A DNA stretch of 64,000 nt from an uncultured Chloroflexota bacterium (GTDB lineage: Bacteria; Chloroflexota; Anaerolineae; Anaerolineales; Villigracilaceae). The notes under the pieces were generated by a model. That model was not told the DNA's origin, did not search any database, and worked only from the letters and a program-made list of their open reading frames with translations. This document shows positions 11,505 to 16,036 of this stretch, in pieces; within the stretch, counting starts at the first letter, position 1, and each line of letters begins with the position of its first letter. Position numbers and translations under genes: made by a program. The stretch lies in NCBI GenBank assembly GCA_903914955.1, contig CAIWRB010000122.1:1-64000 (forward strand), written 5' to 3'.

Positions 11505-12536
11505 CTACTTATCTGCCGTTTGTTTTTTTTCTTCCATGAGCAATTGCATTAACTCAGGTGAGATGTTTAAATTGCCAATCTTGGATGCATTCTGGGCCAG
11601 TTCTTTCATGGCCAAGCTGACCATTAAGCGGGGGTCTGTTGTTTGAACAGCAAGCATTTGCAACACATACGGATCAATCCCCTTGAAAGTACGAAGTGAA
11701 GCTTCCATTGCATAAGCCTGGCTGTCTGCTTCAACGCGCGCATTTTCTGTGCGGACAGATACCAACTGTTTCCGTTCTGTTTCCAGCGCGATCTGTCCTG
11801 AAAGCTGTGCCTGACGAACTTCCTGCTGTTTCTTTTCCACGACCAGATCGGCTTCCACTTTAGTCTCACGGATCTGACGTTTTTTCTCTTCAATGGTGAT
11901 CTCGGTGCTTAGTTCATTTTCCTTGATGCGCCGTTCCTGTTCCACCGATGCATTTCTGCGATCATAAATGGCCTGATCTGCGCGGCGCATGAATTCTTCA
12001 CGCGCTTCGGATTCGAGAGCTCGGGCCACTTCCGGTACGGGGCGAATGGCCTGGATCGCAAGCGCCATCACCTCAACCCCAAGAGATTTGAGTGATTCAC
12101 TTCCACGCATTTTCTCCAGAACTATGGAAGCCACAGCTTCAGATGCCTTGATCACATCCCGCAAGGAGAGTCTTTGAACTTCTGCGCGCACCATTACTTG
12201 CAGCAGGTTAATCAATCTCTGGGAAAGTTTTTGCGGGTCTTCAGAAAGGTACCGGGTCGGTAAATTGTCCACGGTGTAATTAAGCAGGGACGCGACCAGC
12301 TCAGGGTTGAATATCCGGTAGGTCAATTCGCCTTGAACTGTCAGGGGTTGGTAATCCTGACTTAATTCGTTGAAGATGAAAGGCACATCGGCGCTGTTTA
12401 CAGGCACAACCACAATGGAAGATGTTGGCTTATAGTAGAAAAAAGACAGGCCTGTTCCTGCGCGTCTTTTCTTTCCGCCTGCGAAGTGGATCACGTAATG
12501 GGTAGGATTGGCCTTTATATATTGAATTCCTAACAT
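11505..12536 (-). CDS. SPFH/Band 7 domain protein
   Basis: Central SPFH domain followed by a charged coiled coil (EITIEEKKRQIRETKVEADLVVEKKQQEVRQ). Start set at MLGIQYIKANPTH. Confidence 0.85.
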   Translation of the reverse strand: MLGIQYIKANPTHYVIHFAGGKKRRAGTGLSFFYYKPTSSIVVVPVNSADVPFIFNELSQDYQPLTVQGELTYRIFNPELVASLLNYTVDNLPTRYLSEDPQKLSQRLINLLQVMVRAEVQRLSLRDVIKASEAVASIVLEKMRGSESLKSLGVEVMALAIQAIRPVPEVARALESEAREEFMRRADQAIYDRRNASVEQERRIKENELSTEITIEEKKRQIRETKVEADLVVEKKQQEVRQAQLSGQIALETERKQLVSVRTENARVEADSQAYAMEASLRTFKGIDPYVLQMLAVQTTDPRLMVSLAMKELAQNASKIGNLNISPELMQLLMEEKKQTADK

Positions 12537-12580
12537 ACTGACTACCTCCTTGAGTTGGGTGATTTTACCAAAGTTAAGCA

Positions 12581-13846
12581 TCAACGGATCAAAGTTTCAA
12601 GTAATTTCAATTCATCCTCGAATGAATGTACTTTACCGTCCAGCCAAGCAGCGCGCAGTTGGGGCAAGATCTCTCCAAAACGCGGACCAGGTGGAAGACC
12701 GCGCGCTTTTAGATCATCACCAGTACTCTTTGCTTTTACGTGCCTCCACTTCACAATAAATTCCTTCAAGGCTGGTTCATTAGTAATGAGCCAAAGTGCA
12801 TAAATCACAGATAAAGGAATCTTCTCGAGGTGAAATGTCCAAGCGCTAGGTTTGAAGTCTTTGCATGGGATCAAATCGTTTTTCAATTGAGCCGCAGCAA
12901 GAGTTGCGTTGCTCAAATCAGAAGTGAAATCAAGCCGCTTGGAAAGAGCATTAACTATTTCGACTGGAGAATCGAATAACCAGAGTAGGTAGCCAAGCAA
13001 GACTCGATCCACAGAAATGGGGAACTCCGCGGGCGGAATGGAATTCTGCAATGCCAAATACTTCTCGTTGATTTTCGGCATATTTGGGTCGAACCTATTG
13101 AAGACACCCAGGTCGCTCAAACGCAACAACATTTTCAGAGAATTTTCCTCTGCGAAGATCAAATCAATTTCATGACGGATGCGTTGGCCGCTTAGTGTGT
13201 TTAGGACTGCAAAACATTCAGAGTTGATGAGGTGTAAAGTTGAAGGATCAAGAAAAAATCCATACCTCTGTTCGTAGCGAATGGCGCGGAATATCCTGGT
13301 GGGGTCATCCATAAAAGATCGTGGATGCAGAATGCGGATGATCTTCTTTTCGAGGTCAGCCTGTCCGTTTAGCGGATCGAGTAATTCGCCGAAATGCTCA
13401 CCGTCCAAGCGAACAGCCATTGCGTTAATAGTGAAGTCTCGGCGAAGCAGGTCATCACCAATCGTGGATGGTTTTATGGTCGGCAGTGCGCCTGGGCTGA
13501 GATAGGTTTCGTTGCGGGTGGTGATTAAATCTAAGGATGCTGACTGAACACTTTGCGCAAAGGTTAAAGGGAGGTGCCAGATGGCGGTGCGGAATTTAGT
13601 GTGTGGAGTTAATTTACCTCCATATTTCTTGACAAGCGATTCGCCGAATTGGATCGCATCACCTTCGACAATGATATCGAGATCGTTGACTGGTTTGCCC
13701 AGCAAAATGTCACGCACGAAGCCACCGACAAGATAACAGGGCATGTTCATAGACGCGGCTTGGCCGGCAATGCTCGAGAGAAGAGTCTGCTTTTCAGGTG
13801 GAATCAGGTTCGGGTCACGCATGAGGCGAATCAAGTCCTTTTGCAT
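12581..13846 (-). CDS. cca: CCA tRNA nucleotidyltransferase / poly(A) polymerase family
   Basis: YLVGGFVRDILLGKPVNDLDIIVEGD and RRDFTINAMAVRLDG. Start set at MQKDLIRLMRDPN. Confidence 0.88.
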   Translation of the reverse strand: MQKDLIRLMRDPNLIPPEKQTLLSSIAGQAASMNMPCYLVGGFVRDILLGKPVNDLDIIVEGDAIQFGESLVKKYGGKLTPHTKFRTAIWHLPLTFAQSVQSASLDLITTRNETYLSPGALPTIKPSTIGDDLLRRDFTINAMAVRLDGEHFGELLDPLNGQADLEKKIIRILHPRSFMDDPTRIFRAIRYEQRYGFFLDPSTLHLINSECFAVLNTLSGQRIRHEIDLIFAEENSLKMLLRLSDLGVFNRFDPNMPKINEKYLALQNSIPPAEFPISVDRVLLGYLLWLFDSPVEIVNALSKRLDFTSDLSNATLAAAQLKNDLIPCKDFKPSAWTFHLEKIPLSVIYALWLITNEPALKEFIVKWRHVKAKSTGDDLKARGLPPGPRFGEILPQLRAAWLDGKVHSFEDELKLLETLIR

Positions 13847-13869
13847 AAAATCAATTTTACCCTTATAAT
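13841..13869 (+). promoter_or_regulatory. Consensus promoter of the proS-operon leader
   Basis: TTGCAT (13841-13846) - 17 nt - TATAAT (13864-13869), 7 nt before ATG 13877. Confidence 0.75.
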
Positions 13870-13876
13870 CGCGGAC

Positions 13877-13933
13877 ATGTTGATGAACCCGAACCCGTCG
13901 CCTCAAATATGGATAACTACCAAGTCTGGCTAG
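13877..13933 (+). CDS. Candidate leaderless 18-aa leader peptide MLMNPNPSPQIWITTKSG
   Basis: ATG at the expected transcription start; three Pro codons at positions 5, 7, 9; ends 18 nt before a terminator stem. Confidence 0.5.
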   Translation: MLMNPNPSPQIWITTKSG

Positions 13934-13951
13934 GTTCGATTCAGTGCGTTC

Positions 13952-13986
13952 AAACGGCTCCCAGATTTGGTGAGCCGTTTTTTTTT
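13952..13986 (+). terminator. Intrinsic terminator / attenuator
   Basis: AAACGGCTC-CCAGATTTGGT-GAGCCGTTT followed by a T-run; located between promoter and LOG gene on the + strand. Confidence 0.85.
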
Positions 13987-14002
13987 AGACAATGGATACT
14001 CG

Positions 14003-14542
14003 ATGAACATAACAGTATTTGGCGGAGCACAACCCAAAGAAGGTTCAGCGGCATATGAAGAAGCCCGCGAGCTTGGCTCGCTTCTCGCTCAGCGTGGACA
14101 TGCCGTATTAACTGGCGGGTACATGGGAACCATGGAAGCAGTCTCGCGCGGAGCATCCGAGGCAGGTGGCCATGTCATCGGCGTGACCTGCATTGATATA
14201 GAAGAATGGCGCGGCACATCACCCAATCAATGGGTCAAAGAGGAAAGACGTAAGAAGTCGCTGATCGAAAGATTGCAAGCTTTGATCGAAGGTTGTGACG
14301 CGGCACTTGCCCTGCCTGGCGGCGGCGGCACATTGGCGGAAATTTCGTTGATGTGGAATCTGATGATCGTGGAATCTTTTCCCCGCAGGCCGCTGATACT
14401 GATCGGGAGTGGCTGGCGTTCCACATTCGATCAGTTCTTCCATGAGTTTGAGAATTATATGCCCACACACCAACGAGAGTTGTTATACTTTGCGGAAGAT
14501 GTGAATAAGGCAGTTGAAAAGTTGGAAAGCTGGAAAGTTTGA
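14003..14542 (+). CDS. LOG/TIGR00725-like SLOG-family protein
   Basis: MNITVFGGAQPKEGSAAYEEARELGSLLAQRGHAVLTGGYMGTMEAVSRGASEAGGHVIGV; PGGGGTLAEI. Confidence 0.88.
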   Translation: MNITVFGGAQPKEGSAAYEEARELGSLLAQRGHAVLTGGYMGTMEAVSRGASEAGGHVIGVTCIDIEEWRGTSPNQWVKEERRKKSLIERLQALIEGCDAALALPGGGGTLAEISLMWNLMIVESFPRRPLILIGSGWRSTFDQFFHEFENYMPTHQRELLYFAEDVNKAVEKLESWKV

Positions 14543-14596
14543 AGGTTGTAAACCTGCAAACCTGAAACCTGTAAACCTGAAAGCGAAGAGGAAAAA

Positions 14597-16036
14597 ATGG
14601 CAGAAGATAAATTAACAAAGCGTGCTGATGATTTTTCAGAATGGTACAACCAACTTGTTCTAAAAGCCGACCTGGCTGATTACGCCCCAGTGCGCGGCTG
14701 TATGGTCGTCAAGCCGTATGGCTGGGCGTTATGGGAAAATATCACGGCTGTGCTGGATAAGGAATTCAAAGCGACAGGACATGTCAACGCGGCTTTCCCG
14801 ACACTCATTCCCATGTCATTCTTTGAAAAAGAAAAAGAACACGTGGAAGGTTTTGCGCCTGAGTTGGCAGTCGTCACACATGGCGGCGGACAGGAACTCG
14901 AAGAACCTTTGGTAGTGCGTCCTACATCCGAAACCATCATTGGTTATATGTACTCCAAATGGGTTAAGTCTTGGCGTGACCTGCCCATCTTGATCGTTCA
15001 ATGGGGCTCTGTACTGCGTTGGGAGCTTCGCACCAAACTTTTCCTGCGCACCGCCGAGTTTTATTGGCACGAAGGTCATACTGCTCACGCCAGCATCGAA
15101 GAAGCCAAAGAGGAAATGTACCGCATCCTCGATATTTATGAACGTTTCTGTCTCGAAGAAGCCGCGATCCCTGTCATCAAAGGCACGAAGAGCGACACTG
15201 AAAAATTTGCGGGCGCACAGATCACAACTTCCATTGAAGCCATGATGTGGGACAAACGCGCCCTGCAATCGGGCACATCACATTACTTCGGGCAGAATTT
15301 CGCAAAGGCATTTGAAATTCAATATCTCGACAACAACAACACCCTGCAATTTTGCGAAACAACCTCCTGGGCGATTTCATCCCGCATCATTGGTGCGCTC
15401 ATTATGGTTCATAGTGACGACCAGGGCCTCGTATTACCTCCCCGCCTCGCGCCTATTCAAGCTGTGATTGTGCCCATCTTCAAAACTCCCGAAGAAAAAA
15501 TCAAGGTGATGGAAGTTGCCGAGCGCATTTTCAAGGAACTCAAAGCCGCCGGCATCCGCATCAAAATGGATGACCGCGATAACGTCAGCAGTGGATTCAA
15601 ATTCAACGATTGGGAAATGCGCGGCGTACCCGTTCGCATTGAAGTGGGGCCCAAGGATGTGGAAAAGGAATCAGTTGCTCTTGCCCGCCGTGACCGACCC
15701 GGCCGGGAAGGAAAATCCTTCGTCCCGCAAGCAGATCTGAACATAACTGTCAGCGGATTGCTGGTCGAGATTCAGGATTCACTCCTCAAGCGCGCTACTG
15801 AATATCGCGATGCTAACATCCATCATCCCAAAGATTACGAAGAGTTGAAGAAAGTGATTCAGGATGGCTGGGCTTTCTCGTATTGGTGCGAATCACGCGA
15901 GTGTGAAACCAAAGTCAAAGAAGACTGCAAAGCCACCACCCGCAATATTCCTTTCGACCAACCCGATGAAGAAGGCATCTGTATCGTGTGCGGGAAACCT
16001 TCCAAGCGAAAAGTATATTTCGCGAGAGCATACTAA
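14597..16036 (+). CDS. proS: Prolyl-tRNA synthetase (short, archaeal/eukaryote-like type)
   Basis: Class II motifs, RPTSETIIGYMYSKW, FLRTAEFYWHEGHTAH; C-terminal zinc-binding region ending KVYFARAY. Confidence 0.95.
   Translation: MAEDKLTKRADDFSEWYNQLVLKADLADYAPVRGCMVVKPYGWALWENITAVLDKEFKATGHVNAAFPTLIPMSFFEKEKEHVEGFAPELAVVTHGGGQELEEPLVVRPTSETIIGYMYSKWVKSWRDLPILIVQWGSVLRWELRTKLFLRTAEFYWHEGHTAHASIEEAKEEMYRILDIYERFCLEEAAIPVIKGTKSDTEKFAGAQITTSIEAMMWDKRALQSGTSHYFGQNFAKAFEIQYLDNNNTLQFCETTSWAISSRIIGALIMVHSDDQGLVLPPRLAPIQAVIVPIFKTPEEKIKVMEVAERIFKELKAAGIRIKMDDRDNVSSGFKFNDWEMRGVPVRIEVGPKDVEKESVALARRDRPGREGKSFVPQADLNITVSGLLVEIQDSLLKRATEYRDANIHHPKDYEELKKVIQDGWAFSYWCESRECETKVKEDCKATTRNIPFDQPDEEGICIVCGKPSKRKVYFARAY

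Follow-up and report, generated by a model that had tools for sequence, protein, structure and literature searches.

A probable proline-sensing attenuator before proS in Villigracilaceae and related leaders in other Chloroflexota

A short proline-containing open reading frame (ORF) followed by a terminator stands upstream of the prolyl-tRNA synthetase gene proS in an uncultured Chloroflexota bacterium (Villigracilaceae), and raises the question of whether expression of the synthetase depends on translation of this leader. The stretch analysed, referred to as the window, is 64,000 nt long (contig CAIWRB010000122.1). Attenuators located before aminoacyl-tRNA synthetase genes are known for pheST, and for trpS and leuS in Streptomyces (PMC1262725); attenuation of operons for amino acids and aminoacyl-tRNAs was surveyed by Lopatovskaya et al. 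2010, as cited in PMC4833913. Together with the trp, his, leu, ilv and thr attenuators, they have in common with the window leader a short leader peptide with cognate codons, an intrinsic terminator and an alternative helix, and pheST, trpS and leuS also share with it a synthetase as target. We conclude that the window leader is very probably a ribosome-mediated transcription attenuator of proS which senses a shortage of charged tRNA-Pro, and that it is the proline member of an apparently undescribed Chloroflexota attenuator family.

The leader in the window

The leader occupies 108 nt, includes a promoter, an 18-codon ORF, an alternative helix and an intrinsic terminator, and precedes LOG and proS (Table 1). 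The preliminary description had reported a promoter, a small ORF with three Pro codons, a terminator, a LOG-like gene at 14003 and proS at 14597, and all are found at these positions. The proposed pairing of 13918-13929 with 13961-13972 also holds at all 12 positions, two of them G-U. The 3′ strand does overlap the terminator, as had been suggested, but the helix captures the 11-nt loop (13961-13971) and the first base of the 3′ arm rather than an arm of the stem.

Table 1. Features of the proS leader region, in window coordinates
Feature	Coordinates	Strand	Basis
Promoter TTGCAT-17-TATAAT (TTGCAT 13841-13846, TATAAT 13864-13869; 7 nt to ATG)	13841..13869	+	
Leader ORF MLMNPNPSPQIWITTKSG, 18 codons, stop TAG 13931-13933	13877..13933	+	Frame and Pro-x-Pro kept in relatives
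Sensing Pro codons CCG, CCG, CCT (13889, 13895, 13901)	13889..13903	+	Pro enrichment of leader residues
Pro-codon strand of weaker helix, partner 13933-13938	13890..13895	+	Comparative pairing
Post-stop GGUUCG, partner of 13890-13895	13933..13938	+	Comparative pairing
Antiterminator 5′ strand UACCAAGUCUGG, core GUCUGG, ends at leader stop	13918..13929	+	Pairing and swap tests
Terminator 5′ arm AAACGGCUC	13952..13960	+	Sequence reading and conservation
Antiterminator 3′ strand CCAGAUUUGGUG (terminator loop and first base of 3′ arm)	13961..13972	+	Pairing and swap tests
Terminator 3′ arm GAGCCGUUU and U-run (arm 13972-13980, U-run to 13986)	13972..13986	+	Sequence reading, folding
LOG/SLOG-superfamily gene, first after leader	14003..14542	+	PF18306, PF03641; below LOG equivalog cut-off
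proS, prolyl-tRNA synthetase, conserved target	14597..16036	+	TIGR00408 proline--tRNA ligase, above cut-off

Taken alone, this anatomy is weak evidence. In a promoter scan, matches were no commoner than in shuffled sequences (2 vs 3.7), a terminator scan missed the window terminator with its 11-nt loop, and the fold z-score was only -1.96. Rfam gave no match up to E 1 within 12500-15500, T-box included, and the window leader does not show the stem I specifier and T-box antiterminator of a T-box riboswitch. Further Rfam searches for a known leader returned nothing beyond one CRISPR repeat elsewhere. We accept the leader as real because it is conserved in relatives, and not from single-sequence signals. 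There is one leader of the proS type in the window, and the one convincing leaderless leader with terminator in 1.2 Mb of a relative (G048) is also that of proS.

A minus-strand gene for a CCA/A-adding tRNA nucleotidyltransferase (about 12581-13846) has its start codon within the -35 box TTGCAT. The divergent promoters overlap (13841-13883), an arrangement also present in many relatives, and the nucleotidyltransferase gene is itself apparently leaderless, behind TAAAAT. The ProRS of the window is of the archaeal/eukaryote-like TIGR00408 type, which should be halofuginone-sensitive.

Conservation and linkage to proS

LOG homologues were identified in 55/57 genomes of the genus, some of them distant paralogues, and 80 named loci with LOG homologues, mostly from Anaerolineales, were collected. 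A nearly invariant leader was found upstream of LOG homologues. A covariance model built from 62 leaders (R1) gave a strong match in 136 of the 152 genomes of the bacterial family; 24 of its 26 genera are represented, and of the 88 good genomes 85 match. When 400 genomes of the phylum were scanned, a full strong match was obtained in all 25 members of the family and in 0/375 other Chloroflexota.

The leader is nearly always present in a single copy per genome. Exceptions are G448 and G491, whose extra copies look like repeated contig ends, and G031, where a tandem second copy accompanied by a truncated MazG fragment (L201 4844-4951, minus strand) is decayed, its -10 box, core and terminator-stem pairing having all been lost together. 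This copy illustrates how the element looks once selection is lifted.

The usual gene order is leader, MazG-like gene (PF12643), LOG and proS. LOG had been given as the gene next after the leader, which is correct for the window, but in relatives the MazG-like gene usually comes first and was lost in the lineage of the window. Between leader and LOG, two other loci (L045 and L060) carry remnants resembling the 3′ end of the MazG-like gene, which suggests a recent loss, as in the window. Where both MazG and LOG are absent, in three genomes of two genera (G037/L117, G046/L121 and G524/L216), the leader lies directly before proS, and in two genomes with no leader peptide (G446, G503), LOG or MazG is the first gene. 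Together these two patterns indicate that the leader follows proS.

Exactly 18 codons are found in 87 of the 118 distinct leader ORFs, and 109 end in Ser-Gly-stop (the 110th, L088, had its start misassigned by the script), with all three stop codons in use. Proline accounts for 17.8-18.9% of leader residues vs 4.5% in the genes of the window (CCG 197, CCT 109, CCA 50, CCC 25). At least two prolines occur in all 79 distinct ORFs of one set, Pro-x-Pro is present in 114/118 leaders, and the distance from proline to stop is kept, mostly at 30 nt. The Ser codon is TCT in 77/79 leaders, its third base being free at the protein level. In L202 (MIGNTQNPSPAIC) and L203 (MNPNPSPYPGS) the stop and helix have been rebuilt, with Pro-x-Pro retained. 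Two leaders (L094 and L249) have an early stop. A frame test of CCN codons was not decisive, one other frame being almost as CCN-rich because the Pro codons are usually preceded by C. From the conservation of its frame, the leader ORF is probably translated.

Among the 117 distinct leaders in which a -10 box was recognised, 109 have TATAAT placed 6-7 nt upstream of the ATG, so that the mRNA is likely to be leaderless or nearly so; the -35 box is not conserved in all. The leaderless start proposed in the preliminary description holds for the proS version in this bacterial family, but not for every attenuator member elsewhere.

Each of the six pairs of GUCUGG:CCAGAC forms in at least 96% of the cells compared, and the full 12-bp antiterminator helix is paired in 86% of cells vs at most 50% in slid versions. 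Double changes in this helix number 18 cells, a value reached by 6 of 500 shuffles; formal covariation is modest, the core being nearly constant, and the controls leave relatedness uncorrected. When loops were swapped between leaders, each leader's own loop tended to pair better than those of others (z -6.7, again with kinship uncorrected), and the divergent L134, L202 and L203 rank 0-2.5 of 119. Both strands of the helix have been replaced in these three (L202, CCGGUUCC:GGAACCGG; L203, CCGG/AGGG with CCCU/CCGG); the alternative helix is compensated even where it has been replaced in full. The terminator is in turn compensated in L088 (CGACUC/GAGUCG). The comparison of relatives which had been proposed as a check came out in favour of the preliminary description: the small ORF keeps its frame and its Pro codons, and both the terminator and the alternative helix are conserved.

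A further helix, 13890-13895:13933-13938, between Pro codons and post-stop bases, is weaker than the others: 74.6% of its cells are paired, and double changes occur at 3 of its pairs. It was considered as main protector and rejected, since it is present but only about 75% paired. The post-stop GGUUC could also pair with the 3′ arm of the terminator.

Proposed operation of the proS leader

The proposed attenuator builds on the observed sequence parts, their conservation and compensation, the gene linkage and the match between codons and genes; stalling, kinetics and the direction and strength of the response, as we infer them, would be as follows. Transcription would start at or beside the leader AUG and a ribosome would initiate at once. 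With ample Pro-tRNA, it would reach the stop and cover GUCUGG, and the terminator would form before the operon. With little Pro-tRNA, it would wait at the Pro codons, some 30 nt before the stop, and the free GUCUGG would pair with CCAGAC as the latter leaves the polymerase, before the 3′ arm of the terminator exists. The antiterminated RNA polymerase would then continue into (MazG)-LOG-proS.

The same anatomy might instead sense general Pro-linked stalling or destabilisation (EF-P activity, low Mg2+, nascent Pro-x-Pro), as for Salmonella mgtL/mgtP. Pro-x-Pro-x-Pro near the N-terminus resembles MgtL. Proline limitation stalls mgtL and low EF-P stalls mgtP (PMC5021804). We consider this improbable: the usual EF-P target, PP, occurs in only 8/118 leaders, the regulated target is proS, and the Lys and Arg codons found in sister leaders before lysine and arginine genes (see below) are explained only by codon sensing.

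With a ribosome footprint assumed to extend to about 14 nt past the first base of the A-site codon, the front edge of a ribosome at the last Pro codon lies 0-9 nt short of the antiterminator strand in every leader examined, and the antiterminator is predicted to form (median probability 0.99) in a transcript not yet extended into the 3′ arm. When the ribosome has instead reached the stop, it covers the antiterminator strand, and the terminator is then predicted to form in all leaders. At equilibrium, the terminator still dominates in 88% of leaders even with a ribosome stalled at proline, and the switch must therefore be kinetic. The attenuator logic of the preliminary description is supported by the comparative results, and by cognate codons in sister leaders, but equilibrium folding alone predicts no antitermination. 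Capture of the loop, as against exclusion of the stem, is the weakest step of the mechanism; since the helix occupies the loop, a pseudoknot with an intact terminator stem is conceivable.

Without a ribosome, the antiterminator is predicted during transcription in about 70% of leaders, so that absent translation may also give readthrough. The leader could on this ground be a general translation sensor, responding to scarce ribosomes or a poor leaderless start, with proline of little importance; with such a sensor there would be no selection for Pro codons in 24 genera or for cognate codons in other families, and we hold it to be less probable still. Binding of a ligand or protein to the leader RNA, with the ORF secondary and GGCUC/GAGCC as a possible binding site, is the least probable reading, for while the stem is more conserved in primary sequence than a terminator needs, Rfam gives no match even at E 1, the leaders keep their frame, Pro content and Pro-to-stop spacing, and the stems differ in other members of the attenuator family. 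The arms GGCUC/GAGCC (window 13952-13980) are nearly invariant among the proS leaders.

As a putative sensor of Pro-tRNA, the window leader is unlike classical attenuators in its concern with proline and proS, in its leaderless start, and in that the alternative helix takes the terminator loop and not the terminator 5′ arm. The uORF attenuators of mycobacterial ilvB1 and Corynebacterium ilvB-II (PMC13236596, PMC10272879) resemble it in a conserved uORF with sensing codons and attenuation before the operon, in their case a biosynthetic one; they differ in their branched-chain codons and phylum, and no core shared with other pathways is reported for them in the literature examined. The polycysteine short ORFs of mycobacteria (Canestrari 2020, as cited in PMC13236596) are likewise leaderless and contain cognate codons, but are described in the citing text as translation attenuation, whereas the window leader has an intrinsic terminator after its ORF. 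Salmonella mgtL/mgtP also have Pro codons in a short leader, but their targets are a Mg2+ transporter and virulence genes, and mgtL is Rho-dependent (PMC5021804); the window leader has an intrinsic hairpin and U-run. T-box leaders of Firmicutes synthetase genes also sense tRNA charging, but bind the tRNA directly. No proS or proline attenuator and no Chloroflexota attenuator family were found in the literature searched or in Rfam, nor did the papers examined describe the core at the leader stop, and priority is uncertain.

Leaders with other codons in Chloroflexota

At least seven other Chloroflexota families also have the core GUCUGG-N-stop (Ser-Gly-stop), pairing with a CCAGAC of the terminator. 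Weak R1 matches in another bacterial family corresponded to a Lys-rich leader with the same core before an aconitase-family gene. More leaders were found with the pattern GTCTGG-N-TAGG...CCAGAC, and a second model (R2), built from 15 sequences, recovered about 30 members outside its training set, each inspected singly. The core was fixed in the first pattern, a reversed control of which matches about as often, and counts alone prove nothing; the wider family is accepted because of its anatomy, the cognate codons and the blind recoveries of R2. Rejected were the pattern TCTGGNTAGGNNNGCTT, most of whose new matches fall inside genes and have no terminator, first-pattern matches devoid of leader anatomy (L289, L290, L296-L298, L300-L303, L334, L338, L341), and weak R2 matches (L398-L400, L402, L403, L406-L408).

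In representatives, the genes that follow the leader were confirmed as argG, argC and the homocitrate synthase gene lysS (above equivalog cut-offs), as hacA (above a subfamily cut-off) and, by Pfam, as LysE-type; the remaining genes were assigned by sequence motif. The last 22 leader residues include on average 3.95 Lys before lysS (20 leaders, 2 families) and 3.67 before hacA (6 leaders), 4.8 Arg before argG (5 leaders, 2 families) and 4.67 before argC (3 leaders, 2 families). The sensing codons thus match the downstream gene, Lys with lysS and hacA, Arg with argG and argC, and Pro with proS, and their occurrence elsewhere in the phylum lends independent support to codon sensing. The C-termini are alike (KKPDxxSG, RRQPAxxSG, APDDVSG), shortly before GUCUGG many members carry CCGGAC or CCAGAC, which could form a first segment, and the window leader belongs here by the pairing of GUCUGG at its stop with CCAGAC in its terminator.

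Separate origins are usually assumed for attenuators of different amino acids. A core common to leaders of different specificity distinguishes the Chloroflexota leaders from the classical ones, and we lean towards a single homologous family in which the core at the stop codon was kept and the sensing codons exchanged, an ancestral switch being re-aimed at genes for proline, lysine, arginine and perhaps glutamine. In this reading, the antiterminator of the family can work through capture of the terminator loop. If true, this would show how attenuators spread, and predicts that a codon swap changes the amino acid sensed. From the leader family one may also expect regulation in a phylum for which few genetic tools exist, and perhaps read the specificity of unassigned transporters there.

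Leaders before LysE-type genes contain mostly Gln (3.4), with one Lys-rich exception. Gln-rich (QRQQ) members of the attenuator family preceding LysE-type transporter genes are L386, L377, L380, L383, L339 and L342, from three families (f35, f48 and f78). A Pro-rich leader-like ORF, MPMRLPSPPEPEKPDRRSG, carrying the core motif, lies before a metallophosphoesterase gene (G243/L288, about 1556, minus strand), with a hairpin without U-run.
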